64,000 nt of DNA, taken from assembly GCF_000504285.1 (NCBI RefSeq), contig NZ_KI632511.1:8476154-8540153 (forward strand). Direction: 5' to 3'. The translations under genes were made by a program, and so were the position numbers. Positions 15,384 to 52,613 of the stretch are shown piece after piece. The notes under the pieces were generated by a model that had not been told where the DNA came from, did no database searches, and saw only the letters and a list, made by a program, of their open reading frames with translations. Source of the stretch: Actinospica robiniae DSM 44927 (GTDB taxonomy: Bacteria > Actinomycetota > Actinomycetes > Streptomycetales > Catenulisporaceae). Each line of letters begins with the position of its first letter. Position 1 is the first letter of the stretch.

Positions 15384-15389
15384 CTTCAG

Positions 15390-15426
15390 ACGCGGCGCCA
15401 GCCCTCTTTCACGGTTGGCGCCGCGT
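15390..15426 (+). terminator. Hairpin terminator before pglW
   Basis: ACGCGGCGCCA (15390-15400) pairs exactly with TGGCGCCGCGT (15416-15426) around a 15-nt loop, just after the stop of the hypothetical gene. Its position inside the longest possible pglW frame argues that pglW starts downstream, at 15590. Confidence 0.65.
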
Positions 15427-15589
15427 CGTGGAGGCGAGGGCTCCGGCCGAGGATGCCGAGCCGATCAAGTTGGTGGCACGCCCCAGCGCAGAGCTGGCAA
15501 GATGGGGTGTCACCGTCTCGGCACCGACCGCAACGGTGCTGTGCCTTGGCGTGGGTCAAGGTGCCGAACGGATGAAGGGGAGGGGCCTC

Positions 15590-18500
15590 GTGACGCAGGG
15601 CCCGGATCGGCTGGCATCTCGCTGGACGCAGCTGGCTCAAAGTTCGTACTCCTGGGAGCAGGAGGGCCTCTCGCACATCCGCTCGTTCATGCCCGACGCC
15701 CCACCGTACCGGGCCGTCGCTCTGTTCAGCTTCACGGCATTGAGCGGGCGGATCAACGAGTGCGACCTGTTCATCGCCACGCCTGGCGGGCTCTACCTGG
15801 TTGAGCTCAAGGGCCACCCTGGCAGGATCACCAACCGGGGCGCGGACTGGACGTCCCGCTTCACCGGGTCCGACGGACGCGCGCACACCCTCCACCAGCA
15901 CAATCCGCTCCACGCCACCGACCTGAAGTGCAAAGAGCTGCGTGATCGGCTCAAGAAGGCCGCGAAGCAGCTCCGGCTGAACATCCAGATTCCGTGGATC
16001 GAGCCCGCAGTCTTCCTCTCCTCGCCCGACCTTGAATCGCATCTGGACGAAGGCGAACGCATCAAGGTCTTCGGCCGCGACGACCGGAGCACCGGGTTGC
16101 CGAGGATCTGGGCCGATCTACTTGGTCGCGCGCCCCAATCGGTGCAAAGCCGTATCTCGGAGAGCTTCACCGACGAACTGCCGAAGCTGTTGCACCAGAT
16201 CGGCGTCGCGGCGGCACGTGCTCACCTGAAGTTCGGGGACGACTGGCTCTTGGAGCCGAAGCCTCTCGACCAGGGCCCGACCTGGGAGGATCGGCTCGCT
16301 CGGCGTACGGGACTGGCCGACGAGCAAGGCAGGGTACGTATCTACCTCACGGAAGAGGACGCCAGCGAGCAGGCCCGCACCGCCGTCGTTCGGGCGGCAG
16401 AGCGTGAATACAACGTGCTGCAGGGACTGCGACACCGGGGTATCGCGGAAGCCTGGTACTGGTCTACACACAAGGCCGGACCCGCGATCCTGTTCCGGCA
16501 CTCGGCCGAGGACCTGCGCCTAGACCGCTACCTGACGATCTACGAGGAACAGCTCGACTTCGAAACCCGGCTCGGCCTCGTGCGCCAGCTCGCCGAGGCT
16601 CTGCGCTACGCCCACCGCCGCTCGCTTTACCACCGAACCCTCGCGGCCCGCTCCATCTACGTCTCGGCCGGGCGCGAGGGCGCCCACCCGGTACTGCGGG
16701 TGATCGACTGGCAGACCGCAGCGCGCGACTTCTCCTCCACCGCGATGTCGCGGATCAAGTCGCTCGGTCGCGACGCTGTCACGGGCCGTCACCTGGCCGA
16801 AGGGGCTGGGATGTTCCTGGCACCGGAATTCTCTGCCGAGTACCCGGATCCGGCGGCACTCGACGTCTACGGGCTGGGCGCCGTCGGATACCTGATCCTG
16901 ACCGGCCAGCCGCCGGCGCGCAGCGAGGGCGAGTTGTTGGCGCGGCTGGAGCAGGAGCAGGGATTGCACCCGGCTGCCCTCGTCGACGGGCTGGGCCAGG
17001 ATGCGGATCAGTTGATCTACGACTCGACGCGGTTCAGCGCGGATGACCGCCTCGAGTCGGTGGACGAATTCCTCGACCGGCTCGCGGAGATCGAGCGCGG
17101 CCTCGGCGAGGAAGCGGTGGCCGCACAGGCACCGGTACGCTACGTCGACCCGCTCGAGGCGCGCCCGGGGGACTGGCTGGACGAGGAGTTGTTCGTCAAG
17201 CTGGAACTGGGCACAGGGGGGACCGGGAAGGTCCTGCTCGTCGAACGGTTGCGTGAAGATGACGAGGGTGAGGTGCAGATCTCCACGCACGTGCTGAAGG
17301 TGGCGCTGAACCAGACCGATGCGACCGACCGGCTGCGCGCCGAGGCGGATGCGCTGCGCAAGGTCGGCGGAGGTCAGATCGTTCGTCTGGTCAAGGGGCC
17401 GTTCGAGCTTCAGGAGCGGCGCACCGTGCTGCTGATGCAGTATGCGGGCGAGCGCACCTTGGGCCGCGAACTGCGTGAGAAGGGCCGGCTCCCGTACGTG
17501 CGGCTGCAGAACTTCTCCGACAACCTCTTCCATGCCCTGGGTGTGCTTGAGCGCGACGAGGTGGTGCACCGCGATATCAAGCCGGACAACCTTGGCGTAT
17601 TCAAGATCCCGCGTAACGACGAGCGGGAGCTGCTGCTGTTCGACTTCTCTCTGTCCGACAGGCCCGCCACGGACCTGACCTCGGGCACGACCGGTTACCT
17701 GGATCCGTTTCTAAGCCCCCGGGGTGAGCGAACACGGTTCGACGCGCACGCCGAAAGGTACGCGGCAGCGGTGACGCTGCATCAGATGGCGTCGGGCGAG
17801 CGCCCTATCTGGGGTAACGGCGCAGTAGACCCCAAGTCCCTGACGGACGAGTACCCGACGATTTCCTCCGAGCAGTTCCTCGAGCCGCTGCGCGACGGAC
17901 TGACCGAATTCTTCCGCAGGGCGCTCCACCGAGACGCGGACCGCAGGTTCGACAGCTGCGGGGAGATGTACCGGGCGTGGCGGCGGGTGTTCACCGAGGC
18001 CGAGCGCACGACCCCGCAGGTGGCCTCCGGCCAGGAACGCCCGAGCGGATCGGCGCAGGAGGTCGCTGCGCAGCGTGACGCCGCCGCGGCCGCCGCCGAT
18101 CTCGCCGCAGCCCTCGACGTGGCAGGCCTGAGCCCAGCGGCGTTGGACGTGGCGCAGGCGCTGGGCGCTTCGACCGTGGGTGGGTTACTCGGCGTGCCGC
18201 AGCACTTGATCAATACGGAACGGGGCGCGGGCACGCTCGCCAAGCGAGAGCTGAACAAGCGCTACCGAGAGTGGGCAACGCGGCTGCGCGGCGCCCCACC
18301 CTCGATCGCAGAGGTCTCTGACACCCAGCCATCGGATGCGCAAGATACGGAGTCGCCGTCCGCTACGGCATCCGAGCGCAAGCCGGTCGATGTGATGGCA
18401 CGCGACCTCGTCGATGCTCTCGGCGGGTCCAGGCACATCCCCGTGATGCGCGCCTTCCTCGGCCTGCCCGACCCGGATGCCGGGCAAAGTCCATCCGCGC

Positions 18501-20047
18501 TGCCGGCCCGGTGGCCGACCAACCGGGAAGCTGCACGGGCTGCCGGGCTGGCGGATGAGACCGCGGTCAACGCCGCGCTTCCACACGCGGTCCGGAAGTG
18601 GCGTGCCCTGCCGTGGATGGAGCAGGTCCGCAACGACATACACGACCTGCTGCTTCGGGCAGGGCGCGTGATGACGGCGGCCGAGCTCACTGCTGAACTG
18701 CGTGCCCAGGCCGGAGCAGGCACTGCCGACCGGGACCTGGCGCTGTGCTACGCCTCTGCCGTGGTCAGGGCCGGGTTGTGGGTGGAGAACGACCGGGAGG
18801 ACTCGCGATTTGGCGAAACCCGACGTGACGGGATGGTATACGTCGCTATTGAGGCGTCGGCCGGATCATCCACGCCCCAACCGGCGATGGCGGATCTCGT
18901 CGGCTACGCCCACGAATTGGGGCGGTCCGCTGACCAGGCCGTAGGTAACGAACCGCTCCCAAGCGTGGCGGCGGTACGAGCGCTGTTGCGCGCGGTGCCG
19001 GTCGCCGAGCACCTAGCGCCGCTCAGCGAAGGACGCCTGGTCTCCCTGGCCGCTGCGGCGTCAAGGGAGGCGCATGCCTCGCCACGTGGCGATCTGTATC
19101 CGCGCCAACTGCCCTTGGACCGCGCCCTGCGCCTTTCCCAGGCTGCCGTTGGCGTGGGGCATGCGCCCGGTGTGACGGTGAACGACCTGCTCGCCCGCGT
19201 CCGTGTCCGGTTCCCGGAACTCGGCTTCGGTGACGTAACCTACACTCAGCTCGAGCAAGCGCTCAAGGACGCGGGCTACCCCCTGCATTACGACGTAGCT
19301 GCCCGAGTGTTCCGGGGTCCGCAGCGGTCGGCGCTCGCGGCCACCGCCACGCCCGGGCGCACCTCGACCAACCTCGCCGGAACGCCGGCGACCGCCCGGC
19401 ACGCTGCGCTGCAGCGACTGGCCGAAGCTGTGGAGTTCGGCGGTTTCCGGGCGCTGACCGTGCACGTCGGACAGTTGCCCGGCGTAGCCACCGGGGTCGC
19501 GGCCAGGCACGCAGTGCATGCCATCGACGTCAACGCTTCCTTCCTGACCACGTTCCGCACGCTTGCCGAGGAGAAGGGACAGGACTGGGCCAAGGTGTTG
19601 CGCGTGGACGGGAGGCTGCGGGTCAGCAGCGAAGCTCTGGCACGCACGCAGGCGCCGAGCGCCTACGCCGGATACGTGACCGAGGTCTTCTCGCGCTTGC
19701 ACGCGGCTTGGCGCGACGCGGCAGGCGGCCCTGCAGCGCATACGACATTGTTTCTGCACAACGCCGGGTTGCTGGCACGGTACTGGGATCTCGGCGGCCG
19801 GGAACTCCTGACGGAGCTTCAGCAGGTTGCACGGCGCGCAGGCACCTCGCCCCACGGCCTGTGGCTGCTCTGCGCCGCGGAAAACGCCGCGCGCACCCCT
19901 CAGCTCGACGGCAGGACGGTCGAGACAATTATCCCGGACGGTGAATGGATCGTGCTCGGCCGTGCCGCCGCCGAGGTGCTTCGCGGCGTGAACGAACCGC
20001 CGGCAGGAGACAATGAGGAGCCGCGCAAGAGCGGCGCGAACGAGTGA
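15590..20047 (+). CDS. pglW: BREX-2 serine/threonine kinase PglW
   Basis: PglW is the kinase of the phage growth limitation/BREX type 2 system. About 1485 residues, normal for the family. The layout is an N-terminal NERD nuclease-related domain (about 35-180, with NECDLFIATPGGLYLVELKG), a first kinase-like domain (about 235-500), a second kinase domain (about 530-790) and a long C-terminal region. The second kinase has a glycine loop (GTGGTGKV), Lys in HVLKVAL, the catalytic loop HRDIKPDN (near 660) and DFS in place of DFG. The first has HRTLAARS and IDWQ in place of HRD and DFG, so it is probably a pseudokinase. GTG 15590 is preferred because GGGGAGGGG precedes it and a terminator lies within the longer frame from 15380. 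Its stop overlaps the pglX start. Confidence 0.93.
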   Translation: MTQGPDRLASRWTQLAQSSYSWEQEGLSHIRSFMPDAPPYRAVALFSFTALSGRINECDLFIATPGGLYLVELKGHPGRITNRGADWTSRFTGSDGRAHTLHQHNPLHATDLKCKELRDRLKKAAKQLRLNIQIPWIEPAVFLSSPDLESHLDEGERIKVFGRDDRSTGLPRIWADLLGRAPQSVQSRISESFTDELPKLLHQIGVAAARAHLKFGDDWLLEPKPLDQGPTWEDRLARRTGLADEQGRVRIYLTEEDASEQARTAVVRAAEREYNVLQGLRHRGIAEAWYWSTHKAGPAILFRHSAEDLRLDRYLTIYEEQLDFETRLGLVRQLAEALRYAHRRSLYHRTLAARSIYVSAGREGAHPVLRVIDWQTAARDFSSTAMSRIKSLGRDAVTGRHLAEGAGMFLAPEFSAEYPDPAALDVYGLGAVGYLILTGQPPARSEGELLARLEQEQGLHPAALVDGLGQDADQLIYDSTRFSADDRLESVDEFLDRLAEIERGLGEEAVAAQAPVRYVDPLEARPGDWLDEELFVKLELGTGGTGKVLLVERLREDDEGEVQISTHVLKVALNQTDATDRLRAEADALRKVGGGQIVRLVKGPFELQERRTVLLMQYAGERTLGRELREKGRLPYVRLQNFSDNLFHALGVLERDEVVHRDIKPDNLGVFKIPRNDERELLLFDFSLSDRPATDLTSGTTGYLDPFLSPRGERTRFDAHAERYAAAVTLHQMASGERPIWGNGAVDPKSLTDEYPTISSEQFLEPLRDGLTEFFRRALHRDADRRFDSCGEMYRAWRRVFTEAERTTPQVASGQERPSGSAQEVAAQRDAAAAAADLAAALDVAGLSPAALDVAQALGASTVGGLLGVPQHLINTERGAGTLAKRELNKRYREWATRLRGAPPSIAEVSDTQPSDAQDTESPSATASERKPVDVMARDLVDALGGSRHIPVMRAFLGLPDPDAGQSPSALPARWPTNREAARAAGLADETAVNAALPHAVRKWRALPWMEQVRNDIHDLLLRAGRVMTAAELTAELRAQAGAGTADRDLALCYASAVVRAGLWVENDREDSRFGETRRDGMVYVAIEASAGSSTPQPAMADLVGYAHELGRSADQAVGNEPLPSVAAVRALLRAVPVAEHLAPLSEGRLVSLAAAASREAHASPRGDLYPRQLPLDRALRLSQAAVGVGHAPGVTVNDLLARVRVRFPELGFGDVTYTQLEQALKDAGYPLHYDVAARVFRGPQRSALAATATPGRTSTNLAGTPATARHAALQRLAEAVEFGGFRALTVHVGQLPGVATGVAARHAVHAIDVNASFLTTFRTLAEEKGQDWAKVLRVDGRLRVSSEALARTQAPSAYAGYVTEVFSRLHAAWRDAAGGPAAHTTLFLHNAGLLARYWDLGGRELLTELQQVARRAGTSPHGLWLLCAAENAARTPQLDGRTVETIIPDGEWIVLGRAAAEVLRGVNEPPAGDNEEPRKSGANE

Positions 20048-23000
20048 CAACCGGCGAAAGGCGTGTTGTGGTGACCAGCGGGCATGGACGGGTCTCGGCT
20101 GTGAAAGCTCGCACTGCGGAGCTTCTTCGGGATCTCCAGCAGCAAGTCAGGCTGCTCGAGACGGACCTGGAGCGCCGCGCCGCGGACAAGCGAGAGCCGT
20201 TTGCCGCGCAACTGGCTGCCGAGCATGCAGAGGCTGTGGCCAGGCGGCGTGTCGATGACGGCTACACGGACTGGCTCGCCGAGCGGATTGCGCAGGTCGC
20301 CGCCGCCTGGGTACTCGGCTGTGTGTTCGTGCGCTTTGCGGAGGACAACGAACTGGTCGACGACGTCTACCTCGCCGGCCCCGGCGAACGGCTCGCGAAA
20401 GCAGAGCAGACGCACGAGAGCTACGTGCAGGCAAACCCGAACGACAACGACCGGGACTACCTGATCGCGGCGCTCGCGTACTTCAAGGACCAGTCGGACG
20501 CCACGAGGGCGATTCTCGATGAGAACCACAGCCCGATTTGGTCTATTACGCCGAGCTACGAGGCGGCGGATGCCCTGATCCGGTTCTGGCGTCGACGCGG
20601 CCCGGACGGCGAGATCGTGCACCGCTTCGATGGACGAGACGAGAATGGCCGGCTGGACACGCGCTTCCTCGGCGACTTGTACGAGTACATGTCCGAGTAC
20701 GCGCAGAAGAAATACGCGCTGCGGCAAACACCGGTTTTCGTCGAGGAGTTCATCCTGGACTTGACGCTCGAGCCTGCGTTGGAGGACTTCCCGCTCCACG
20801 GGTTCCGCGCGATCGACCCCGCGTGCGGCTCGGGCCACTTCCTTTTGGGGCTCTTTCACCGGCTGCTCGCACACTGGGAGCGGCTCGAACCGGGCACGAG
20901 CCGGGTCGAACTCGTGCGGCGTGCGTTCTATAGCGTGCACGGCTGTGATCGCAACCCGCACGCGGCGGCGATCGCTCGATTCCGCCTGCACCTGGCGGCC
21001 CTCGACGCAGCGGGCGCAAAGAAGCTGTCCGAAGACCATGGGTTCCGGCCCGTCATCGCCGTGGGCGACTCATTGCTGGCGGGAGGCGACAGCGCCGGGA
21101 AGCAAGGCAGTATCGTCGAGGAAACGAATGAGTTCGAGTTCTGGGTTGAAGACACCCAGTTCTACATCGAACGGCACCGTCTGCTTGAACGAGGCTCCTA
21201 CCACGCCGTGGTGGCGAACCCGCCGTACATCACTGTGCGTGACAAGATGGAGAGCGAGCGCTACCGGGAGACATTCGGAAAGGTCTGCTACCGTCAGTAC
21301 TCGCTGGCGGTACCGTTCGCAGTGCGCCTGTTCCAATTGGCCGTGCGCGGCGATCGAACTCACCCCTCCGGCCATATCGGACAGATTACCGCGAACTCGT
21401 TCATGAAACGCGAATTCGGCAAGATCCTGGTCCAAGAGAACTTCGCAAAACATGTCGAGCTCACCAAAATCATCGACACATCCGGCGCGTATATCCCGGG
21501 CCACGGCACGCCGACCGTCATCCTCATTGGGAGGAACCAGCACCCATACAAGGACATCCCGATTCGTGCGGTGCTCGGTGTCCGAGGCGAGCCTGGGCAA
21601 CCGGAAGACCCTCAGGATGGCCTTGTCTGGAACGCCATCGTGCGTCAGGTGGGCAAGGAAGGCAGCGCATCGGACTACGTCACGGTTGAGGACGTGACAC
21701 GCGGGCACTGGGCGACCCATCCGTGGTCTGTCAGCGGCGGCGGGGCGGGGGACCTGTTCAGCGATATTGTGACCGCTGGCGTCGCTACCGTTGGGGACCG
21801 ATGCGTGGCAATCGGCCGCACGACACACACGGGAAGTGACGAATCGTACTTCGCACCACCGAAAGCCTGGCAGCGGCTCGGAGTAGATCGCGCTCACGTG
21901 GTCGACCTCGTCGAAGGCGACGTAGTACGCGACTGGCACCTTGACCCGGCGACCGAAGCGCTCTTTCCGTATGGCTCCGATCTGAAGGCAGGCCTTGGCG
22001 ATCAGGCCATGGAGCAGCTGCTTTGGATGCAGCGCGTTGGATTGAGTGGCCGTGTGGAACTCGGTGGCACTCACGAGGAAGTCGGTCTCACCTGGTTCGA
22101 ATGGAGCCGCTGGCATCCTGAGCGATTTACTGTTCCGCTTGGACTTGCCTTTGCATTTGTCTCGACTCACAACCATTTTGTCCTCGACCGGGGTGGGCGT
22201 GTATTCAATCGATCCGCACCAGTCATCAAACTGCCGCTCGGGGGGACGGAAGACCGACACCTGGAACTACTGGGTATCCTGAATTCGTCAACAGCGTGCT
22301 TCTGGCTCAAGCAAGTGTGCCAGGGGAAGGGAAACAGAGGCGGTGAACGGTCTACAGGGCGATGGGAGTGGGAGGAGTACTTCGAGTTCAGCGGGACTAA
22401 GCTCCGGAGCTTCCCCCTACCGAAGAGCCTGCCCCTAGAATACGGCAGGGTACTCGATTCCCTCGCAGGGCAGCTCGCCGCCGTCGAGCCAAAGAGTGTC
22501 TGCATCGAAGGCGTGCCCACGCGGGAGGCCTTAAATCGCGCCCGCGTGACCCACGAGGTTCTCCGCACGCGGATAATCGCGCTTCAGGAAGAGCTCGACT
22601 GGTTCACCTACGGCTTGTACGGCTTGCTCACGCAGAAGCAGATCCTGAGCGTCATAGCGCCTGACCTTGCAGACGTCGCCGGCATTAGGTTGGGCGAGCG
22701 TGCCTTCGAGATCGTGCTTGCCGCTGGAAAGGAAGACACTCAGTGGTTTGCTCGACATGGTTCAGCACCGGTCACTGAAATCCCCAGGCATTGGCCGGAG
22801 TGGTACCGCGCGATCGTGCAGGCCAGGGTTGATCTCATCTCAAAGAATCCGAACATCAATCTCATCGAACGGCCCGAGTACAAGCGCCGTTGGTCGCTCG
22901 AGCCGTGGGAAAGGCGTGAGGCTGAAGCGCTGCGCGGCTGGCTGCTAGACCGCACCGAGGACGAGGATCTGTGGTACACGCGAGTCGGTGGTCATGCAGC

Positions 23001-23643
23001 GCCGCGCCCGCTGACGATCAACCAGCTTGCGGACCGGCTGCGGCGTTCGGATGAGTTCGTGTCTGTCGCCGAACTGTACGCGCAATCCATCGGCAAAGTG
23101 GATGTGTCCCTTGAGAAACTGCTGACCGATCTTGTCTCAACGGAACACGTGCCGTATCTCGCGCGCCTGTGCTACAAGGCCACTGGGCTACGCAAGCGGG
23201 CACGATGGGAGGCCGTCTGGGAAGCGCAGCGCGAGGAGGACCGGATCGGTGTGCACCGTACCGTCGAGGCCCCGCCGAAGTACTCGTCTGCGGACTTCGC
23301 CAAGCACTCGTACTGGGCCCAGCGCGGCAAGCTCGATGTGCCGAAGGAACGGTTCGTCAGCTATCCCGACGCTTCGCCGTCCGGAGATGGCTCGCTGTTG
23401 CTCGGCTGGGCTGGCTGGAACCGCAGGGACCAGGCCCAAGCCCTGGTGAGTACCTTCACCGAGCGGGTTGAACAAGACGGCATCGTCCTTCCAGATCTCC
23501 TCGTCGGCCTCGAGGAGATCATGCCGTGGATCGCGCAGTGGCACGCCGACTACGATGCGGACTGGGGTGGCTACCCCGCCCAGGAGTTCACGGCCTTCCT
23601 GGATGAGCAACACGCCAAGCACGGACATGGAGGGGTGGGCTGA
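20044..23643 (+). CDS. pglX: BREX-2 adenine-specific DNA methyltransferase PglX
   Basis: PglX is the modification enzyme of type 2 BREX, expected to methylate adenine at a non-palindromic host site and mark self DNA. About 1199 residues. The N-terminal region is helical; motif I (DPACGSGHF, near residue 258) binds S-adenosylmethionine, and the N6-adenine catalytic motif NPPY lies near 392 (VVANPPYIT). The C-terminal half should hold the target-recognition region. It overlaps the pglW stop by 4 bp (GTGA), so translation is coupled. GTGs at 20068 and 20071, behind AAAGG, are alternative starts. pglY follows after 2 bp. Confidence 0.95.
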   Translation: MTTGERRVVVTSGHGRVSAVKARTAELLRDLQQQVRLLETDLERRAADKREPFAAQLAAEHAEAVARRRVDDGYTDWLAERIAQVAAAWVLGCVFVRFAEDNELVDDVYLAGPGERLAKAEQTHESYVQANPNDNDRDYLIAALAYFKDQSDATRAILDENHSPIWSITPSYEAADALIRFWRRRGPDGEIVHRFDGRDENGRLDTRFLGDLYEYMSEYAQKKYALRQTPVFVEEFILDLTLEPALEDFPLHGFRAIDPACGSGHFLLGLFHRLLAHWERLEPGTSRVELVRRAFYSVHGCDRNPHAAAIARFRLHLAALDAAGAKKLSEDHGFRPVIAVGDSLLAGGDSAGKQGSIVEETNEFEFWVEDTQFYIERHRLLERGSYHAVVANPPYITVRDKMESERYRETFGKVCYRQYSLAVPFAVRLFQLAVRGDRTHPSGHIGQITANSFMKREFGKILVQENFAKHVELTKIIDTSGAYIPGHGTPTVILIGRNQHPYKDIPIRAVLGVRGEPGQPEDPQDGLVWNAIVRQVGKEGSASDYVTVEDVTRGHWATHPWSVSGGGAGDLFSDIVTAGVATVGDRCVAIGRTTHTGSDESYFAPPKAWQRLGVDRAHVVDLVEGDVVRDWHLDPATEALFPYGSDLKAGLGDQAMEQLLWMQRVGLSGRVELGGTHEEVGLTWFEWSRWHPERFTVPLGLAFAFVSTHNHFVLDRGGRVFNRSAPVIKLPLGGTEDRHLELLGILNSSTACFWLKQVCQGKGNRGGERSTGRWEWEEYFEFSGTKLRSFPLPKSLPLEYGRVLDSLAGQLAAVEPKSVCIEGVPTREALNRARVTHEVLRTRIIALQEELDWFTYGLYGLLTQKQILSVIAPDLADVAGIRLGERAFEIVLAAGKEDTQWFARHGSAPVTEIPRHWPEWYRAIVQARVDLISKNPNINLIERPEYKRRWSLEPWERREAEALRGWLLDRTEDEDLWYTRVGGHAAPRPLTINQLADRLRRSDEFVSVAELYAQSIGKVDVSLEKLLTDLVSTEHVPYLARLCYKATGLRKRARWEAVWEAQREEDRIGVHRTVEAPPKYSSADFAKHSYWAQRGKLDVPKERFVSYPDASPSGDGSLLLGWAGWNRRDQAQALVSTFTERVEQDGIVLPDLLVGLEEIMPWIAQWHADYDADWGGYPAQEFTAFLDEQHAKHGHGGVG

Positions 23644-23645
23644 AC

Positions 23646-26600
23646 ATGGGTAACGGCTCTGGAACCAAGGTGCTGCGCGACGTCCTCGAGATCAGAGATG
23701 ACGTGCACTCCGGCGACTTCAAGGTGGAGTTGACCGCCGGAGTCGCCGACGAGGCCAAGACCAAGCAGCTTATCGACGAGTACGTGGTTACCGATCAGTT
23801 GCGCAAGGCGTTCGCCGACGCGTTGAATCTGGTCAAAGCCGCCTATACCACGCGCACCTCGCACGCCGCGTACCTGCACGGCTCGTTCGGATCCGGGAAG
23901 TCCCATTTCCTGACGGTTCTCCATGCGGTGCTGAACAACGACACCGATGCCCGGGCGAAGGCTGGCCTCCAGCCTGTCATCGCGGACCACGACTCATGGC
24001 TGCGTGGACGCAGCTTCCTGATGGTGCCTTACCACCTCGTTGGCGCCACTGACATCACCTCGGCGCTGCTCAGCGGTTACGTGCGCACCGTAGGCGAGAA
24101 GCACGATAAGGCGCCGACGCCAGCGGTCTACCGGGACCAGCAGTTGATGGCCGACGCGCGGCGCCAGCGGCAGTTTTTCGGCGATGACGCCCTGTTCGCG
24201 CAATGGCTCGGCGGTGGTTCCAGGCAACACCCGGCGGCCGCGGGCAGGGCGGCGCCAGACGACGACCTCGAGCCGTTGGATGCCTCCGCGCCCGGCGCCG
24301 CTTCACAGTCTTGGTTGGCCGCCGACCTCGACACCGCCCTCGACGAGCACACCCCACCCGGCGACGCCACGCGCGGCCGCTTAGTACAGGCGCTGCTGGA
24401 TGGGCCGCTGAGCAGTTACAAGTCCGCGGTTCACGGCGCGGACGGCGGGTTTGTCTCGCTCGATGACGGTCTGTCCGCGATCTCGCACCATGCCCAGAGC
24501 CTCGGCTACGACGGGATCGTGCTTTTCCTCGATGAACTGATCCTGTGGCTCCAAGCCCACCTGGGTGAGCGCACGTTCATCAACACCCAGGTGCAACTGC
24601 TGGTCAAGCTCATCGAGTCGGCCAACAACGACCGGCCGATCCCGATCGTGGCGTTCGTCTCGCGGCAGCGGAACCTGTCGGTGTTGATCGGCGAGGACAT
24701 CGTCGGCGCGGACGTGAAGAACCTCGAGGCCCAGGCCAACTACTTGGCAGAGCGATTCGACGTGATCGAGCTCGAAGACCGGAATTTGCCGGCGATCATC
24801 CGGGAGCGGGTGCTGCGTCGTCGGCCGGGAGGCGAGTCGGCGATCGACGCCGCTTTCGACGCGGTGGAGACGGCCGGCGCCAAGGACCGCGACATCCTCC
24901 TCGACGCGCACGGCGCCACGCAGGCGGACTGGGATGACTTCCGCAGCGTCTACCCGCTGACTCCCGCTCTGCTCAACACTCTGGTCGCGATCTCCAATGC
25001 GCTTCAGCGAGAGCGCTCTGGGCTCAAGCTCGTCTACGAATTGCTCCGCAACAACGCCGAGACGCCACTTGGCAATCCGATCCCGCTGGGCGAGTTGTGG
25101 GATGTGCTCACCGCGCGCACCGGTGCACCGTTCACCGACCGGCTCAAGACAGAGGCCGAACGCGCCCAGAAGCTTCACGGGGAGGTTGTGCGAACCCTGC
25201 AGGAGCGCTACCAGGGCGATCCCGACGACACGCGGCTGCGTCAGGACGACCTGCTGATCAAGACGCTGCTGCTATCGGCGCTCGCCCCAGACGTGCCGGC
25301 GCTTCGCCAGTTGACCGGCGGGAAGCTGGCTGCGCTCAACTACGGCGTACTCACCTCGCGGCTGACCAGCGCCGGTAGCGCGGCCGTCAAACGGATGCGC
25401 GAGTTGGCCGCGGAATTCTCCGGACAGATCCGCTCGGACGGCGACCAGGCCGATCCGGTGTTCACCGTGCACCTGTCCGATCTCGACGTCAAACCGCTGC
25501 TGGATGCCTGCGACGACGCCGACCGCCCGGGCTCGCGCCGCATCTGGGTCAAAAAGCTGCTGTGGGATGCATTCGGCGTACCGATGGACCAGACTGCCGA
25601 TGCGGAACAGCGCGCAGTCATTTGGCAGGGCACCCAGCGACGCGTCGAGTTCGTCTTCGGCAACGTCCGCGACTCCCATTCGGTAAGCAGCGGCCGATTC
25701 GAACCCGACACCGCTGGCCACATCAAGATCGTCATTGACTACCCCTTCGACGAGCCGGACCACTCGCCCAACGACGACAAGGCGCGGGTGGAGGCGATGG
25801 TGCGCGGCGGTACCAGCGCGCCGACGGTGGTGTGGCTGCCCGACTTCCTCTCGGTCAGCTGCACGAACCTGCTCGGAAGGCTGCTGCGCACCGAGTCGCT
25901 GCTGCGCGGCGACCGACTGGAAGAGGTCGCCAGCCACCTCTCGGCCGAGGACCGTCTACGGGTCAAGCAGCAGCTCCAGGTCAGCGCCGCGAACCTGACG
26001 CAGCAGCTTACCGAGGCGATCTTGCAGGCCTACGGCCTGGTCAAGGGCGAGGAGCGCAACATCGGCTCCACCGTGACCGACGGCGAGCACCTGCTGTCCC
26101 TGCTCCCCGGCCACCGTCCGGTACTCCGCAGGTCCGAGGGCTTCGAGAAGGCCATGCTGCGGATCGCGCAGGATCTGTTCACCGGCCTGCACCCGGGACA
26201 CCTTAACCTCGATCCGCAGGGCAAGGGCGATCTGGTCACGCTGCGCGACCTCAAGACCGTGCAGGCGCTCGTAGCTGCGGCGGTCGAGGACGGGTCGATG
26301 CGCACGGTCGTCGAGAGTTCCAAGCTGCTGCTCGCGCGGAGGATCGTGCACGGGCTCCAACTCGGCGAAGTGCACGACGGGCCGCTGAACGTTTCGACCG
26401 AGTGGCGCAGGCGCCTCGACCAGCAGGCTGCGAAGGCGGGCGTCGATCCAGGCGCTGACCTGAAGGTCGAACAGTTACGCGCCTGGCTCGGAGAGCTGGG
26501 GTTCACCGGGCTGGATCGCAACGCCTCGAACCTGATCATTTCCTGCTATGCGATGGTTGCGGACAAGACATGGGTCTACCACCAGTCCCCGGTCGCCGCG

Positions 26601-27503
26601 CCCGAGCTTGAGCGGATCGGCGAGGGCTACGCGCTACGTTCCCAGGAACTCCCGGACGAGCAGCAGTACACCGCAGCCTGTGCGAAGGCGGCCGGGGTGT
26701 TCGGTCTGAGGTTCCCGCCGGTACGCAACGCGCGCAACACCGCGCAGCTGGCCGCGGAGGTCCGGGCACAGGTCGGCCGTTATGAGGGGCCGGTGAAAAA
26801 CCTCTTGGACTCTCTCCGCGCCGACACGCACGCCGCGCTGCTCGGCCTGGAGGCCGGGAACGCCCGCACCACCTCGGTGACCGAGGCTGCCGAGCTTCTC
26901 GCGAAGCTCTCGCGGCACCACGACAAGGACAGCGATACGGCCCTGGTCGGGGAGCTTGCCACCCACGCCTACCCGGTCAGCGACCAGGTTATGGGCAACA
27001 CGATCAAATCCGCCCAGGAGGTCCTGACCGCGCTCGACGCGACCCAGTGGTCCATGGTGGAGATGGTTCGGGATATGGCCGAGCGCGCCGACGACATCGG
27101 CGAGCAGGCCCGGTCGCTGGCGAACCGGCTGACCAAGGCAGCAAACAGCGAGGAGTTCGTCGCCTCCCTGCCCGAGGCCCTGGCCGAGACGTACAACCGC
27201 GGCCTTGTCCTGCTTGGCGAGTCGCAGCGGCGCGCTGCCGTAGCGGTCGAGCGCGTCACGCCGCCCGCAGTACCGGACGGCCCGACGGTGCCGGATCCTG
27301 CGCCGCGCAACGCCGGCGATGTGCCGTTGCCCTTGGACGAGCAAGAGCTCGCTCCACGCCGCGCAAAGCGCGCGCGATCCGCGAGCATGCTCGAATCGAT
27401 TAGCCGGGACGTCCTGGCCGAGGCCAGCGCCTATGCCTCTGCGCATCCCGATGCGGTGATCGAGATCATGTGGCGCCCGGTCGTCGATGAAGAAGGAGCC
27501 TGA
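23646..27503 (+). CDS. pglY: BREX-2 P-loop ATPase PglY
   Basis: PglY is the large AAA-type ATPase of the Pgl/BREX-2 complex, equivalent in role to BrxC of type 1. It has about 1285 residues, with Walker A GSFGSGKSHF near residue 79 and Walker B VLFLDELILWL near 292. Long helical regions follow, and a low-complexity Pro-rich stretch occurs near 1205-1225. Its sequence and position between pglX and pglZ make the assignment firm. ATG 23646 is 2 bp after the pglX stop. Its end overlaps the possible ATG (27487) of pglZ. Confidence 0.94.
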   Translation: MGNGSGTKVLRDVLEIRDDVHSGDFKVELTAGVADEAKTKQLIDEYVVTDQLRKAFADALNLVKAAYTTRTSHAAYLHGSFGSGKSHFLTVLHAVLNNDTDARAKAGLQPVIADHDSWLRGRSFLMVPYHLVGATDITSALLSGYVRTVGEKHDKAPTPAVYRDQQLMADARRQRQFFGDDALFAQWLGGGSRQHPAAAGRAAPDDDLEPLDASAPGAASQSWLAADLDTALDEHTPPGDATRGRLVQALLDGPLSSYKSAVHGADGGFVSLDDGLSAISHHAQSLGYDGIVLFLDELILWLQAHLGERTFINTQVQLLVKLIESANNDRPIPIVAFVSRQRNLSVLIGEDIVGADVKNLEAQANYLAERFDVIELEDRNLPAIIRERVLRRRPGGESAIDAAFDAVETAGAKDRDILLDAHGATQADWDDFRSVYPLTPALLNTLVAISNALQRERSGLKLVYELLRNNAETPLGNPIPLGELWDVLTARTGAPFTDRLKTEAERAQKLHGEVVRTLQERYQGDPDDTRLRQDDLLIKTLLLSALAPDVPALRQLTGGKLAALNYGVLTSRLTSAGSAAVKRMRELAAEFSGQIRSDGDQADPVFTVHLSDLDVKPLLDACDDADRPGSRRIWVKKLLWDAFGVPMDQTADAEQRAVIWQGTQRRVEFVFGNVRDSHSVSSGRFEPDTAGHIKIVIDYPFDEPDHSPNDDKARVEAMVRGGTSAPTVVWLPDFLSVSCTNLLGRLLRTESLLRGDRLEEVASHLSAEDRLRVKQQLQVSAANLTQQLTEAILQAYGLVKGEERNIGSTVTDGEHLLSLLPGHRPVLRRSEGFEKAMLRIAQDLFTGLHPGHLNLDPQGKGDLVTLRDLKTVQALVAAAVEDGSMRTVVESSKLLLARRIVHGLQLGEVHDGPLNVSTEWRRRLDQQAAKAGVDPGADLKVEQLRAWLGELGFTGLDRNASNLIISCYAMVADKTWVYHQSPVAAPELERIGEGYALRSQELPDEQQYTAACAKAAGVFGLRFPPVRNARNTAQLAAEVRAQVGRYEGPVKNLLDSLRADTHAALLGLEAGNARTTSVTEAAELLAKLSRHHDKDSDTALVGELATHAYPVSDQVMGNTIKSAQEVLTALDATQWSMVEMVRDMAERADDIGEQARSLANRLTKAANSEEFVASLPEALAETYNRGLVLLGESQRRAAVAVERVTPPAVPDGPTVPDPAPRNAGDVPLPLDEQELAPRRAKRARSASMLESISRDVLAEASAYASAHPDAVIEIMWRPVVDEEGA

Positions 27504-27507
27504 TACG

Positions 27508-30381
27508 GTGCCCACGGCAGCCGAGCAAACCTCCCAGCGGGCGCCCCGGATCAGCCGGAGCGTGCTGGCCGGGCTTGTTCGCGGCGAACTCGAGCGCAAG
27601 CGCGCGCAGCTCTTGCTCGTGCACGCCGACTCGTCCGAGTGGTCGGGCACGGACGGATCATTCGCCCTCAATGTCATTGGCCTGCGTTACCAGGTGAGCG
27701 TCGTCGAGTGCGGCAGCGTTCTGGCTGCGGCGGACGCATGGGAACGGCACCAAGCGGCACAGACTGGATCCGACGTCCGGGTCCTGGTGATCACAACCTC
27801 GGTTCCGGACGAGGACCTGGGGCTGAGCCTGCGCGCGTATGCGGCGCATCAGGCCACGATCACCGTGCGACGCGACGAACTGGTTCTCGAGCAGTTCAAC
27901 CTGCGCGAACTCGACTGGCGCCTGAGCCGTGAGCAGTGGCTGCTCGACGCGCTTCTCGATGCCGCGCCGCCCGGCGGGTGGGCGGCCGGACGAAAGCGCA
28001 TCGGAACCGTGCTGACCAGAGACGCCGCCGCCGCTGCCCTGTTGGAGGCGCGCACTGGGCTGGCAGGCGAGGACGACGGCCTGACCGCTCCGGATATCGG
28101 CACGCTTCTCGAATGGAGCGCGCAGGGAGCCGGCTCTCAGCGTTACGCGGAGCTGTCGGGAGCCGAACGCGACGGCTTGGCCGCCTGGATGCGGGAGACC
28201 TCCGGTGCTCCCGCCGCGCTGGTGCTGCGTCTGGCCGAGCTCGGCCGGGGCGCGGACGCGGTGCCCCTCGGGCTGCTGTGGAGATCCGCGAACGGTCACG
28301 GCGACGCGTTGCTGCTGATCGGGGCGCTGTTCGGTCACGGCGGGCCCACGACCGGGGACCTGGACGCTCTGGCCACGGCGGCGGAAGGAGCCGTCGCCCG
28401 GTGGATTACCGCAGCGGCGCGCTCCTCGGCCGCGACCGCGACGGGCCAGCGTGATCGGGTACTGGCCGCGGTGGCCCGCGCCGAACAACTCGCCTCCGCA
28501 AGCCGCCATCTGACCGCCGGATTCCGAGAGAGCGCCGTCCTGCCGCTGGGCTTCTCCGCGCGGTGGAACGAATTCGCCCAGGCGCTCGCACACGAGTCGG
28601 GCTCGAGTGCTGCTGCTGCGGTGGCGGAGAAGTACGACGCGCTATGTCGGCACCGTCTCGCCGCGCTCTTCCCGCAGCGGATCGAACTGGCCGAGATGGC
28701 GCTGCGCGTGGTCCGGTGGCTGGCCCGCACCGCCGAAGCGACGGCGGCTCAGCCAAAATCCGTCGCCGCGCATCTATCCCGGCACATCGACGAGCTCGCC
28801 TGGGTCGATCGTGCGCTGAACACGTTGCACCACGGAGACCCCTACCTCGATCCTGACCAAGATTCAGCCGACTACGTCGCCTCGGTCTTGCGCGAGCTCC
28901 ACGACCGTGCGCGCACCGCCCGCTCCGCAATGGACACCGCGTTCGCAGAGATCCTCGCCCGCTGGACGCCCGCAGCCGATGCAGCCCATCCCGGCGGTGT
29001 CCTGCCGATCGAGGCGGTGATGGAGACAGTGGTCGCGCCCTTGGCAGCAGGCATCGACCGGGCGCCAATGATCCTCGTGATCGACGGGATGTCCGGCGCC
29101 GTCGCCGTCGAATTAGCCGAGGAGATGACACGGCGCAACCAGTGGACCGAGATCGCGCTCACGGGCCAGGGCCGCAAGTCCCGTATGACCGCGTGTGCGA
29201 TGGTGCCCTCGATCACCGTGGTCAGCCGTTGCAGTCTGCTGTCAGGGACTGCGAGCAAGGGCGGTCAGGAGCGTGAGAAGGCAGGGTTCGCGGCGTTCTG
29301 GCGGGCCCACGGATATGCAGCGAGCCTGTTCCACAAAGCCGATATCCCGGGCGAGGGCGCCGGAGCGCGCCTTAGCGGTCGATTGACGCAGGAGCTTTCC
29401 GGCCCAGGGGTGGTCGGGGTGGTGCTCAACGACGTGGACGACGCGCTGGACAAGGGCGCCCGCGGCGACCGTGCCCGATGGGCGCATGAGAGCCTCACCC
29501 ACCTCGCCGTCCTGCTCGACGCCGCGAGCGCGTACGGTCGCCCGGTCGTGATCGTTAGCGATCACGGCCACGTGCTGGACCGATCCACGGCACAGGATTC
29601 ACCGGCGCGAACAACGAGCACTGACCGAAGCCAGCGCTACCGCAGCACCGACGGCGAACCCGCTGGCCCGGGCGAGGTGGTGCTCACCGGGCTGCGCGTG
29701 CTCGAGCACGGCGGCAGCCTCGTCGCGGCGGTGAGCGAGCCGCTCAGGTACACCTCGAGGAAGGCCGGCTACCACGGGGGCGCGTCCCTGGCCGAGATGG
29801 CCATACCGGTTCTGGTGTTCCTCCAGGCCGGGCAGCCCGTGCCCGAAGCTACGGGCGGGCCCGAGTGGAGCGTGCTGAACCAAAGCCAGACGACCCCTGT
29901 GTGGTGGAGCGGCGAACAACCGCCCGGCGGCGTGGTTCAGGCACAGCCGGCACCGCGCAAACGTCCTGCCCGAGGCGCTGTGCCCTCGAGCGAGACCGGG
30001 GCCGAAGCCCTGTTCTCTCTCGAACCGGGCCAGGGCACGACAGCGAACGCGGCGCCCACACGGCCGGCCTCCCCCTTGCTCGGCTCGCTCGTTGTGGCCA
30101 GCGAAGCCTACGCACGCCAGCGCAAGTTCGTGCCGAAGATGAAGGACGCCGAGGTCACTGCGGTAATCGACGCGCTGGACGCGGCCGGAAGGACGCTTCC
30201 GGCCGCAGCGCTCGCCCAAGCCGTCGGGCGGTCCGGCACGCTGTTCGACGGGTTCGTCGCCAACCTCGAGCGGCTTCTGAACATCGACCAGTATCCGGTG
30301 GTCTCCCGGATCGACGCGGGGCGCACCATCCGGCTCGACACAGAACTGCTGCGCGAGCAGTTCGGCCTCGGGCGCCGCTAG
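27508..30381 (+). CDS. pglZ: BREX-2 phosphatase-fold protein PglZ
   Basis: PglZ is the defining protein of all BREX systems, with an alkaline-phosphatase-like domain. About 957 residues. Metal-site motifs are visible at LVIDGMSG (near 523) and VSDHGHVLD (near 682). The C-terminal part (about 740-957) is variable, with a terminal helical domain. Two starts are possible: ATG 27487, which overlaps pglY by 17 bp but has no ribosome site, and GTG 27508, which has AAGGAG at 27493-27498. The GTG is preferred. The exact biochemical role of PglZ in exclusion is not settled; nuclease or phosphatase functions have been proposed for family members. Confidence 0.94.
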   Translation: MPTAAEQTSQRAPRISRSVLAGLVRGELERKRAQLLLVHADSSEWSGTDGSFALNVIGLRYQVSVVECGSVLAAADAWERHQAAQTGSDVRVLVITTSVPDEDLGLSLRAYAAHQATITVRRDELVLEQFNLRELDWRLSREQWLLDALLDAAPPGGWAAGRKRIGTVLTRDAAAAALLEARTGLAGEDDGLTAPDIGTLLEWSAQGAGSQRYAELSGAERDGLAAWMRETSGAPAALVLRLAELGRGADAVPLGLLWRSANGHGDALLLIGALFGHGGPTTGDLDALATAAEGAVARWITAAARSSAATATGQRDRVLAAVARAEQLASASRHLTAGFRESAVLPLGFSARWNEFAQALAHESGSSAAAAVAEKYDALCRHRLAALFPQRIELAEMALRVVRWLARTAEATAAQPKSVAAHLSRHIDELAWVDRALNTLHHGDPYLDPDQDSADYVASVLRELHDRARTARSAMDTAFAEILARWTPAADAAHPGGVLPIEAVMETVVAPLAAGIDRAPMILVIDGMSGAVAVELAEEMTRRNQWTEIALTGQGRKSRMTACAMVPSITVVSRCSLLSGTASKGGQEREKAGFAAFWRAHGYAASLFHKADIPGEGAGARLSGRLTQELSGPGVVGVVLNDVDDALDKGARGDRARWAHESLTHLAVLLDAASAYGRPVVIVSDHGHVLDRSTAQDSPARTTSTDRSQRYRSTDGEPAGPGEVVLTGLRVLEHGGSLVAAVSEPLRYTSRKAGYHGGASLAEMAIPVLVFLQAGQPVPEATGGPEWSVLNQSQTTPVWWSGEQPPGGVVQAQPAPRKRPARGAVPSSETGAEALFSLEPGQGTTANAAPTRPASPLLGSLVVASEAYARQRKFVPKMKDAEVTAVIDALDAAGRTLPAAALAQAVGRSGTLFDGFVANLERLLNIDQYPVVSRIDAGRTIRLDTELLREQFGLGRR

Positions 30382-30429
30382 GGTGTCAGCGAGCACGATC
30401 ATGGCAGTGAAACGTCAGGGAGAACGCAG

Positions 30430-31782
30430 ATGACGGCGCCCACGCCGACGGAAGCCGAGGTGTCGGTCAGCCCGGTCCGGCGACGGCAGATCGTGGACGC
30501 ACTGCGTCGCGGCACCGTGCCGCAAACCGGCCTCGACCTGTTCGCCGTCGGGATGCAGCGGTTCGTTCCGGCTCTGGACGAACAACTGTCCGCGGTCGCA
30601 GCGGGAGCCGCAGCATTCCAGGCGGTGCGCGGCGAATACGGAAGCGGCAAGACCTTCTTCGCCCGGTATCTCGCCGAGTGCGCGCGCAGAGCCGGCCTTG
30701 CCACCAGCGAGATCCAGATCTCCGAGGGCGAGACGCCGCTGCACCGGCTCGAGACGGTCTACCGACGGCTCACCGAGCATCTGACCACCTCCACACACCA
30801 GCCCAGCGCACTGACCGCCGTGATCGACTCATGGCTCTACACATTGGAGGAGGACGCCGCAGAGCAGCTCGGCGCGAGCGCCGACGACCCCGAACAGGTC
30901 TCGGCGGCCGTCGAGGGCCTGCTCGAACAGCGCCTCGCCGTCGTCGCCACCACGGCCCCGGCGTTCTCCGCAGCACTGCGCGGCTACCGCCAATCTCGCC
31001 TGTCCGGAGACACGAGCACCGCTGAAGCGCTCGCGGCCTGGCTGGGAGGTCAGCCGAGCGTGGCTGCCGCCGCGAAACGCGCCGCAGGGGTGCGCGGTGA
31101 CCTGGACCACACCGCCGCGCTCGGCTTTCTGCGCGGCCTGCTCACTGTGCTCCGGGAAAGCGGCCATCCAGGATTGCTCGTCGTACTCGACGAGATCGAG
31201 ACGCTGCAGCGCGTGCGCTCCGACGTTCGGGAGAAGGGCCTCAACGCCCTGCGCCAACTGATCGACGAGATCGATGCCGGGCACCTGCCCGGCCTGTTCC
31301 TCGTGATCACCGGCACCCCGGCGTTCTTCGATGGCCAACAGGGCGTGCAGCGACTGGCGCCATTGGCCCAACGACTGGCCACCGACTTCACCACCGACCC
31401 CCGATTCGATTCCGCGCGCGCAGTCCAACTGAGGCTCACCGGCTTCGACATCGACCGCCTGACTGAACTCGGCAACCGGGTCACAGCCCTGTACGCGAAC
31501 GGTGCTCGCAACCCCGACCGCGTCGCGCGATTCGCGGACGACGCCTACCTTCGCGACCTGGCCTGCGCGGTCGCCGGGCACCTGGGCGGGCAGGTCGGCA
31601 TCGCACCGCGCCTGTTCCTGCGCAAACTGGTCGCCGACGTACTCGACCGAATCGACGAGTTTCCCGACTTTGACCCGCGCAAGCACTATCGCCTTACCGT
31701 CAACGACGCCGAGCTCACCGAGGCCGAGCGCAACGCCGGCGCGGCGACCCGCGCCGACGAGGTCGAGCTGGACCTGCCGTGA
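30430..31782 (+). CDS. brxD: BREX system ATP-binding protein BrxD
   Basis: BrxD is the ATPase found in type 2 BREX loci together with BrxHI. It has 450 residues, with Walker A GEYGSGKTFF near residue 70, Walker B LLVVLDEIETLQ near 250, and a later sensor-like segment (LFLVITGTPAFF). It lies 48 bp after pglZ with AGGGAGAACGCAG before the ATG. Its stop overlaps the brxHI GTG by 4 bp, so the two should be made together and probably interact. Confidence 0.92.
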   Translation: MTAPTPTEAEVSVSPVRRRQIVDALRRGTVPQTGLDLFAVGMQRFVPALDEQLSAVAAGAAAFQAVRGEYGSGKTFFARYLAECARRAGLATSEIQISEGETPLHRLETVYRRLTEHLTTSTHQPSALTAVIDSWLYTLEEDAAEQLGASADDPEQVSAAVEGLLEQRLAVVATTAPAFSAALRGYRQSRLSGDTSTAEALAAWLGGQPSVAAAAKRAAGVRGDLDHTAALGFLRGLLTVLRESGHPGLLVVLDEIETLQRVRSDVREKGLNALRQLIDEIDAGHLPGLFLVITGTPAFFDGQQGVQRLAPLAQRLATDFTTDPRFDSARAVQLRLTGFDIDRLTELGNRVTALYANGARNPDRVARFADDAYLRDLACAVAGHLGGQVGIAPRLFLRKLVADVLDRIDEFPDFDPRKHYRLTVNDAELTEAERNAGAATRADEVELDLP

Positions 31783-33941
31783 TCACGGCGCACAGCGGCG
31801 AGGATGAGGATCCGTTCGCCGCGCTGCATCCGGTGCTCGCCCACCACATCGTCAATACTCTGGGATGGCGGAATCTACGCCCCCTGCAGCGCGCGGCGAT
31901 CCGCCCGCTGCTCGCGGGAGCAGACGCGGTGCTGCTCGCGCCGACGGCCGGCGGGAAGACCGAAGCCGCGCTCTTCCCGCTGCTGACCGCGATGGATCGA
32001 GACCGGCGCCGCGGCTTAAGCGTGCTCTATCTGTGCCCAATCAAGGCCCTGCTCAACAACCTCGCGCCCCGCGTCGGCAGTTACACTGACTGGATCGGCC
32101 GGCGGACAGCGCTCTGGCACGGCGACATCGGAGCCGGAGCGCGTCGGGCGCTGCTCCGCGAGCCGTCCGACATCCTGCTGACTACTCCCGAGTCGTTGGA
32201 AGCGATGCTCGTCTCGGTGAACGTGGACGAGCAGGACCTGTTCCGCAGCCTCGCCGCCGTGGTGATCGACGAAGTGCACGCGTTCGCTTCCGACGACCGC
32301 GGCTGGCACCTGCTGGCCGTCCTCGAAAGGCTCAGCAGATTGTGCGGTCGCCCGCTCCAGCGCATCGGGCTGTCCGCCACCGTCGGCAACCCCGAACAAC
32401 TCGCGGCCTGGCTCCAAGGTGCGAACCCCACGGGACGCAAGCCCGAGGTCATCGCGGCCGGTACAGGCCCGCTCTCGCCTCATCCGCGCGCTGCAGACCT
32501 CGAACTGGACTACGTCGGTTCGCTGGAAAATGCCGCGCGCGTCATCGCCGCGCTGCACACCGGCCAGAAGCGACTCGTGTTCTGCGACGCCCGGCGCCAG
32601 GTCGAGCAACTCGGCCAAGCGCTCAACGCCCTCGGCGTGCAAACCTTCCTCTCCCACGCCTCGCTTTCGGCCGACGAACGCCGACGCAGCGAGACCGCGT
32701 TCGCCGAGGCCAGGGACTGCGTCATCATCGCCACGTCCACCCTCGAACTCGGCATCGACGTAGGCGACCTCGACCGGGTCATCCAGATCGACGCGCCGAA
32801 CACCGTCGCCTCCTTCCTCCAGCGACTCGGGCGGACCGGCCGGCGCCCGCAAACCGAGCGCAACTGCTTGTTCCTGGCGACCGGCGAACGCCAACTCCTT
32901 CAGGCCGCCGGACTACTCCACCTGTGGGGACAAGGGTTCGTGGAACGGGTCGCCGCCCCGCCCGAGCCGCTGCATCTCGTCGCCCAGCAGGTGATGGCGC
33001 TGTGCCTGCAAAAAGGCAGAGTCGGCGACCGCCTGTGGGAGCAGGAGTGGAACGGCCTGACCCCATTCGACGCCGAAGCCGCCCCCATTGTCGAACACCT
33101 GCGCAGCGAAGGGTTCCTCGACGCGGACGGAGGCATGCTCTTCGTAGGCCCTACAGCCGAGCACCGCTTCGGCCGTCGCCACTTCATGGAGCTGACCGCG
33201 TCCTTCACAGCACCGCCGCAGTTCACGGTGCTCGCAGGACGCACCGAGATCGGCCAAGTCGAGCCCGGACTCCTCACGGCATTCGCCGACGGCCCGCGCC
33301 GGATCCTTCTGGCCGGACGCAGTTGGCAGATCACGTTCATCGACTGGGCACGACGTAGATGCCAGGTCGAGCCCGCCGACGGCGGCGGCCGCGCCAGGTG
33401 GGGAGCATCCGCGGAGCGTGGCGGCCTGTCCTTCGAGCTGACCCAGGCGATGCGCACAGTCCTCCTCGGAGAAGACCCCCCCGTGCGCCTCACCCGTCGC
33501 GCGGAAACCGCGCTCGCCAAGGCGAGGGAGAAAGGGAGCACTCTGGTACATCCGGATGGGCTGATCATCGACGTCGGTGACCGCGCCACCAGGGTGCGGT
33601 GGTGGACCTGGGCAGGGCATCGCGCGAACCTCACCCTCGCGGCGTCTTTGACCGAAGCCGGCGGCCCCGGGTGGTCGAGCGCACCCGCCGTGAGCGACCG
33701 GTGGATCGCGATCCCTCGAGAGCTGACCTTCGCCGAGTGGAAGGAGGTGTCCGCCATCGCCCGAAATCGTCCGCTTCGCGCCCCGGCTCCTGACCCCAAC
33801 GCCCTTCAAGGCCTGAAATTCTCCGAAGCCCTGCCAAAGCAGTTGGCCGAGCGGGTACTCGCCACGCGCCTGGCTGACTACGAGGGCGCACGCCACGTAT
33901 TCTCAGTCCCCACACACTGGCACGCTGGCCGTGATCTGTAG
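31779..33941 (+). CDS. brxHI: BREX-2 superfamily 2 helicase BrxHI
   Basis: This is an Lhr-like DEAD/DEAH helicase, about 720 residues. Motif I is APTAGGKTEAA (near 55), motif II IDEVHAF (near 161), motif III LSATVGN (near 197) and motif VI QRLGRTGRR (near 348). The C-terminal region beyond 400 is family-specific. It starts at GTG 31779, coupled to brxD by a 4-bp overlap, and is the last gene of the six-gene BREX-2 set. The stop is followed by about 120 bp before the first nuclease-like copy. Confidence 0.93.
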   Translation: MITAHSGEDEDPFAALHPVLAHHIVNTLGWRNLRPLQRAAIRPLLAGADAVLLAPTAGGKTEAALFPLLTAMDRDRRRGLSVLYLCPIKALLNNLAPRVGSYTDWIGRRTALWHGDIGAGARRALLREPSDILLTTPESLEAMLVSVNVDEQDLFRSLAAVVIDEVHAFASDDRGWHLLAVLERLSRLCGRPLQRIGLSATVGNPEQLAAWLQGANPTGRKPEVIAAGTGPLSPHPRAADLELDYVGSLENAARVIAALHTGQKRLVFCDARRQVEQLGQALNALGVQTFLSHASLSADERRRSETAFAEARDCVIIATSTLELGIDVGDLDRVIQIDAPNTVASFLQRLGRTGRRPQTERNCLFLATGERQLLQAAGLLHLWGQGFVERVAAPPEPLHLVAQQVMALCLQKGRVGDRLWEQEWNGLTPFDAEAAPIVEHLRSEGFLDADGGMLFVGPTAEHRFGRRHFMELTASFTAPPQFTVLAGRTEIGQVEPGLLTAFADGPRRILLAGRSWQITFIDWARRRCQVEPADGGGRARWGASAERGGLSFELTQAMRTVLLGEDPPVRLTRRAETALAKAREKGSTLVHPDGLIIDVGDRATRVRWWTWAGHRANLTLAASLTEAGGPGWSSAPAVSDRWIAIPRELTFAEWKEVSAIARNRPLRAPAPDPNALQGLKFSEALPKQLAERVLATRLADYEGARHVFSVPTHWHAGRDL

Positions 33942-52470: not shown

Positions 52471-52613
52471 GCCACGTCCGGACTATCCGACACGCGTCGG
52501 CGCGATCCGAATTTGTACGGACGGTGGCGGACTCGTATCATCAAGGGTGGGTGGACGATCCGGTACTGGGTGACACGTACTGGTATAGACTGGCATAGAG
52601 CGACATTGATATC

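Follow-up and report, generated by a model that had tools for sequence, protein, structure and literature searches.

A probably functional type 2 BREX (Pgl) operon and a second, diverged locus in the genome of Actinospica robiniae DSM 44927

Type 2 bacteriophage exclusion (BREX) systems were counted in 1309 taxa in a 2026 survey (PMC12839542), and the phage growth limitation (Pgl) system of Streptomyces coelicolor A3(2) has been described in PMC4365076. In this study we analyzed a locus of this type in Actinospica robiniae DSM 44927. It is located in a stretch of 64,000 nucleotides (nt), bases 8476154-8540153 of the 9.92-Mb single-contig genome, which is referred to as the window. Since type 2 BREX is already known from so many taxa, the window locus is a further example of a known system and not a new kind. 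It has all six components of the architecture given in the survey, and nothing that defines the type differs. PglW likewise carries a NERD domain, two kinase stretches and a long C-terminal part, and brxD and brxHI form a tight pair in the window too. The differences noted are a damaged Mrr-like gene after brxHI and a second complete locus in the genome. With the S. coelicolor A3(2) system as described in PMC4365076 it shares pglW, pglX, pglY and pglZ, an identical PglY Walker A motif (GSFGSGKS) and the kinase catalytic loop. No papers joining the terms 'Actinospica robiniae' and 'BREX' were found, which shows only that both terms do not co-occur in the literature searched.

The six-gene operon and its family assignment

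Judged from gene content, order and motifs, the region 15572/15590-33941 of the window very likely represents a complete type 2 BREX (Pgl) operon in probably working condition. It comprises the following genes:

pglW, 15572-20047, + strand: NERD nuclease-like domain, two kinase stretches and long C-terminal part (PADLOC PglW, NCBIfam BREX_PglW, Pfam, motifs)
pglX, 20044-23643, + strand: adenine-specific DNA methyltransferase of BREX-2 type (PADLOC PglX, NCBIfam BREX_2_MTaseX, DPACGSG and NPPY)
pglY (BrxC-like), 23646-27503, + strand: large P-loop ATPase (PADLOC BrxC-PglY, NCBIfam BREX-2 PglY model, GSFGSGKS and DELILW)
pglZ, 27487-30381, + strand: PglZ-domain protein of BREX-2 type (PADLOC PglZ, NCBIfam BREX_PglZ_2, DGMS and SDHGH)
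brxD, 30430-31782, + strand: P-loop ATPase (PADLOC BrxD, Pfam BrxC_BrxD, NCBIfam BrxD)
brxHI, 31779-33941, + strand: DEAD/DEAH-type helicase (PADLOC BrxHI, DEAD and Helicase_C, GGKTE, DEVH, QRLGRTGR)

An earlier note on this DNA, made from the sequence alone, had described six type 2 genes in order, none of them broken, with overlaps or short gaps at each junction. This is borne out by the open reading frame (ORF) analysis, in which six large ORFs, adjacent and all on one strand, contained zero internal stops. The junctions from pglW to brxHI measure -4, +2, -17, +48 and -4 nt in this order, the widest gap thus being 48 nt. The pglW ORF extends over 15380-20047 with start candidates TTG at 15380, ATG at 15572 and GTG at 15590 (the start taken in the earlier note), of which ATG or GTG appear likelier than TTG in a comparison by eye with the second locus.

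The profile scores of the six proteins are beyond chance. In the PADLOC search, which the earlier note had proposed as a check, each protein matched its own family (best matches: PglW 1357 bits, PglX 1518, BrxC/PglY 1259, PglZ 747, BrxD 662 and BrxHI 1007). The cut-offs of the NCBIfam models BREX_PglW (1377 bits, cut-off 990), BREX_2_MTaseX for BREX-2 PglX (1562 bits, cut-off 400), BREX_PglZ_2 for BREX-2 PglZ (718 bits, cut-off 200) and BrxD (647 bits, cut-off 350) were passed. No BrxHI-named NCBIfam model was found among the best 25 of 42 matches of the helicase. Pfam domains were NERD and kinase stretches in PglW, Eco57I methylase and DUF7008 in PglX, the PglZ domain in PglZ, BrxC_BrxD in BrxD (E = 9e-138), DEAD and Helicase_C in BrxHI, and, barely above the threshold, DUF6079 in PglY. 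Among PDB sequences searched by phmmer there was no match to PglX (E up to 0.001) or PglZ (E up to 0.1); PglW had 287 matches, the best 60 of which were protein kinases.

The motifs named in the earlier note (HRDIKPDN, NPPY, Walker motifs, DHGH, DEVH) were all present. Altogether, the six proteins contain the NERD D...ExK motif, HRDIKPDN, DPACGSG, NPPY, GSFGSGKS, DELILW, DGMS, SDHGH, GEYGSGKT, LDEIE, GGKTE, DEVH and QRLGRTGR, whose residues are presumably catalytic. In the second locus of the same genome all of these are retained at aligned positions with conservative changes. The same holds for five genes of a related locus of Actinospica acidithermotolerans, whose partial PglW stops short of the three PglW motifs. 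At the DFG position of the kinase, PglW has DFS in both loci of the A. robiniae genome.

Hence, the identity as type 2 BREX, as already read in the earlier note, is supported by two profile libraries, the gene order and the motifs, which agree. A match of PglX to the PADLOC profile REase_MTase_IIG (1023 bits) would fit a stand-alone type IIG restriction-modification enzyme with the other genes being incidental. This score is lower than that of the PADLOC PglX profile, the BREX-2 model of NCBIfam was passed by a wide margin, and five partner genes are tightly packed around pglX, which makes this explanation extremely improbable.

Some observations weigh against a complete and working type 2 operon. 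PglY scored 903 bits with the NCBIfam BREX-2 PglY model, the cut-off of which is 1700, with a match spanning the whole model. Two neighboring genes are damaged (34060-35100 and 42738-43980), indicating that the region is not wholly maintained. Furthermore, the mechanism of type 2 systems is itself disputed between PMC12839542 and PMC4365076, as far as the parts cited here extend.

A second locus and the PglX recognition region

A PglZ search of the genome resulted in an extra match at 6.09 Mb, by which a second complete type 2 BREX locus was first seen (L003, G000:C1:6076040-6094715). It is located 2.4 Mb from the window locus and consists of six genes in the same order, each a PADLOC match. 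Protein identities to the window locus are 35% for PglW, 44% for PglX, 33% for PglY, 34% for PglZ, 64% for BrxD and 59% for BrxHI. The A. acidithermotolerans locus (L007, NZ_JAGSOH010000009.1) contains pglX to brxHI in the order of the window, with pglW cut by the contig end. Its proteins are 52-78% identical to those of the window over all six, PglW being partial (PglX 57% overall, PglZ 53%, BrxD 78%). All six window proteins are nearer to L007 than to the second locus of their own genome, which indicates that the two loci of this genome are not the result of a recent duplication.

PglX was compared in a three-way alignment of the window, the second locus and L007 in 60-column blocks. In the region of residues ~575-691 identity to L007 dropped to 28%, with flanking blocks of 63% before and 70% after. 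Compared with the second locus, this region showed 28% and 35% identity; the preceding block was also low (34%), and other low blocks exist, e.g. 28% at ~115-173. We infer that residues ~575-691 may form the target-recognition region, based on two comparisons of which only that with L007 is clear-cut. Read in this way, the divergence suggests that the target sites are probably different. It is a tentative proposal, on balance rather doubtful, that two complete and strongly diverged type 2 BREX systems with differing PglX recognition regions are active in one cell, and that each marks or attacks a DNA site of its own with no harm to the other.

A PglZ relative was present in 14 of the 60 genomes searched, including that of A. 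robiniae, and two copies were found in two of them (A. robiniae and G019). PglZ had no match among 50,697 phage records. BrxHI matched 776 of 72,556 plasmid records at E up to 1e-30, with identities below 60% in 774 of these 776, and the helicase by itself is no proof of BREX there.

Host marking or phage marking

The roles of the components may be outlined from their families, following the domain roles of type 2 components in the cited parts of PMC12839542 and PMC4365076. The kinase domain and the C-terminal part of PglW would sense the infection and signal to the other components, whereas the NERD domain may act as a reserve nuclease. PglX would mark adenines within a short site that its target-recognition region specifies, and PglY/BrxC would be the ATP-driven motor of the complex. 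PglZ is the presumed main effector, either a nuclease or a phosphatase, which would also restrain PglX. BrxD would load the BrxHI helicase onto the invading DNA.

Alternatively, the window locus may work like the system proposed for S. coelicolor, in which host DNA remains unmethylated, PglZ keeps the toxin PglX in check, and phage DNA receives its mark during the first cycle and comes under attack during the following one. We regard this as possible, though not probable. The core genes are the same as in S. coelicolor, where, according to the cited part of PMC4365076 (Hoskisson et al.), PglX is toxic when PglZ is absent, the kinase activity of PglW and the ATPase activity of PglY are essential, and N6-methyladenine was undetectable by antibodies in the DNA of the host and of progeny phages. 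On the other hand, this work itself was unable to show methylated phage DNA, and PMC12839542, in the part cited, finds direct evidence of phage methylation lacking and argues for a scheme like that of type 1. Moreover, phase variation in S. coelicolor was ascribed to a G tract in pglX (PMC4365076, as cited), which is without visible counterpart in the window pglX. A homopolymer scan of the window found no run of at least 7 identical bases in this gene, and hence no visible phase-variation tract. Two such runs exist in the window, T7 at 1039 and C7 at 33476. The latter, inside brxHI, is the sole C/G run of at least 7 in the window and is too short for a claim of phase variation.

For the window locus we tentatively favor the BREX-like scheme over the S. 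coelicolor Pgl model. Missing adenine methylation of the host would not refute a Pgl system, because none was detectable in S. coelicolor as far as described in the cited part of PMC4365076. It is doubtful whether PglX-dependent adenine methylation is a defining feature of type 2 BREX.

Genomic surroundings and significance

The earlier note had placed the locus on a mobile island, probably transferable, between an integrase and a tRNA-derived attachment site. Both features exist:

tyrosine integrase, 2217-3575, - strand: 452 aa, Pfam Phage_integrase (E = 5e-28), 12 kb upstream of pglW
tRNA-Met (CAU) 3' fragment, 52613-52699, + strand: orphan attachment-like site, 18.7 kb downstream of brxHI

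They are at most candidates for the paired ends of one element. The fragment is 97.7% identical over 87 nt to 4559019-4559105 and is composed of ~50 nt from the 3' part of the tRNA and ~36 nt of the sequence following the parent tRNA-Met gene (4.559 Mb). The upstream arm of the site, 52440-52680, matches 4508653-4508893 with 89% identity. No whole tRNA gene was detected in the window by ARAGORN or Rfam. The fragment was compared with 30 of the 53 tRNA loci of the genome, and the whole genome was searched with the fragment itself. Strong similarity was seen at two places, namely at the tRNA-Met gene (4.559 Mb) and at a fragment located at 4.509 Mb; two further matches were weak (40 nt, 85%). 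Outside 52581-52740 itself, neither the window nor the 10 kb flanking it on each side contained an exact 13-nt match to this segment, and a matching repeat pair of attachment sites bounding the BREX island was not found in the window, its 10-kb flanks or the whole genome.

The two strong relatives bound a stretch of ~50 kb, 4 Mb from the window (G000:C1:4508653-4559130, L057-L059), which looks like a putative 50-kb element inserted at tRNA-Met. About 150 nt from this tRNA gene it carries an ORF for a 502-aa integrase with a Pfam Phage_integrase domain and a C-terminal GntR helix-turn-helix domain, adjoined by a shorter integrase-like ORF (L059:12042-12803). The window integrase is only weakly similar to the former (27% over 158 aa, E = 0.009) and shares 33% identity over 73 aa with the latter. 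The tRNA-Met site of the window joins the inner arms of both ends of the 50-kb stretch, as would an unused attachment site.

It is thus quite unlikely that the BREX locus lies inside one integrative element ending at the integrase (2.2-3.6 kb) and the tRNA-Met fragment (52.6 kb). Transposase genes in the window (50713-52203, 54228-55121 and 89-1030) and an IS21-type pair in the left flank, as well as the presence of both border features, speak for such an element. The site lacks a second copy in the surroundings searched. Its strong relatives delimit another stretch, whose integrase is a different one and has no close relative in the window. Because no fitting partner of the fragment was found, we retain the single element as a low-confidence alternative. 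The transposases of insertion sequence (IS) elements in the neighborhood make a horizontal history plausible, though unproven. Transfer of the BREX locus is possible, with the integrase and the tRNA-Met fragment as candidate borders only; the mobile island was not demonstrated.

Near-full-length relatives of the window integrase (66-70%) occur in both congeners searched. In the search for an empty site the left-flank gene was found in 1 of 14 family genomes, that of A. robiniae only, and the right-flank gene in 5 of 14, A. robiniae included. On one congener contig, of which 39,000 of 53,354 bases were compared, DNA matches were confined to the right-flank gene and a 119-nt left-flank stretch, with no wider synteny; the other translated matches listed were short and scattered.

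The BREX operon sits in a cluster of defense genes with IS elements, which includes the following features not named in the earlier note:

34060-35100, + strand: damaged Mrr-like gene for a putative PD-(D/E)XK nuclease, immediately downstream of brxHI, with homologous segments in different frames
35785-37038, - strand: RmrA antitoxin of a RosmerTA-type pair, helix-turn-helix and ImmA-like protease (PADLOC RmrA, E = 6e-108; Pfam Peptidase_M78 and HTH_3)
37035-37934, - strand: candidate RmrT toxin, 299 aa, 4-nt overlap with the RmrA gene
38001-39230, + strand: PADLOC candidate PDC-S54 (E = 2e-119)
41583-42635, + strand: intact copy of the Mrr-like gene (350 aa), located 7.5 kb beyond the damaged one and 82-87% identical to it in DNA
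42738-43980, + strand: PADLOC candidate PDC-S48, split over two frames (42738-43442 exonuclease, Pfam RNase_T; 43159-43980 C-terminal part, PDC-S48 E = 8e-86)
48203-48802 and 48803-49939, + strand: PADLOC candidate pair PDC-M02A/PDC-M02B, DUF4365 protein and partner (E = 8e-63 and 9e-142)

The assignment to Mrr is a weak one, with a Pfam Mrr_cat score of 18.6 bits against a cut-off of 21. Mrr-like genes were matched in 13 of 245 genomes of the order, including A. robiniae, and the matches were split or only partial in 2 of the 12 other carriers (G037 and G194). A PglZ relative was present in 3 of these 12, on another contig in two and 1.6 Mb away in one. No Mrr-like gene was found in the congener genome G002, which is probably the one containing L007. 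Although PD-(D/E)XK nucleases are the most prevalent BREX-associated effectors according to the cited part of PMC12839542, a role of the Mrr-like gene as BREX accessory nuclease was unsupported, as no link to BREX was seen in the 12 other carriers. The candidate RmrT toxin had no profile match in Pfam, PADLOC or NCBIfam; in RosmerTA systems, as described in the cited part of PMC10440598, RmrA is paired with differing toxins. The split of the PDC-S48 gene may reflect either decay or a sequencing error, between which the sequence does not distinguish.

Type 2 is a BREX branch with a contested mechanism, host marking as in type 1 versus phage marking as proposed for Pgl. The window locus in itself adds one intact example to more than 1000 known taxa. 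Beyond this, a genome with two complete and diverged type 2 loci would provide a convenient strain for the question of host versus phage marking, because the methylome could be read after deletion of either pglX. If both systems indeed run in one cell with differing recognition regions, this strain could give a direct answer on which DNA, host or phage, is methylated by type 2 systems.

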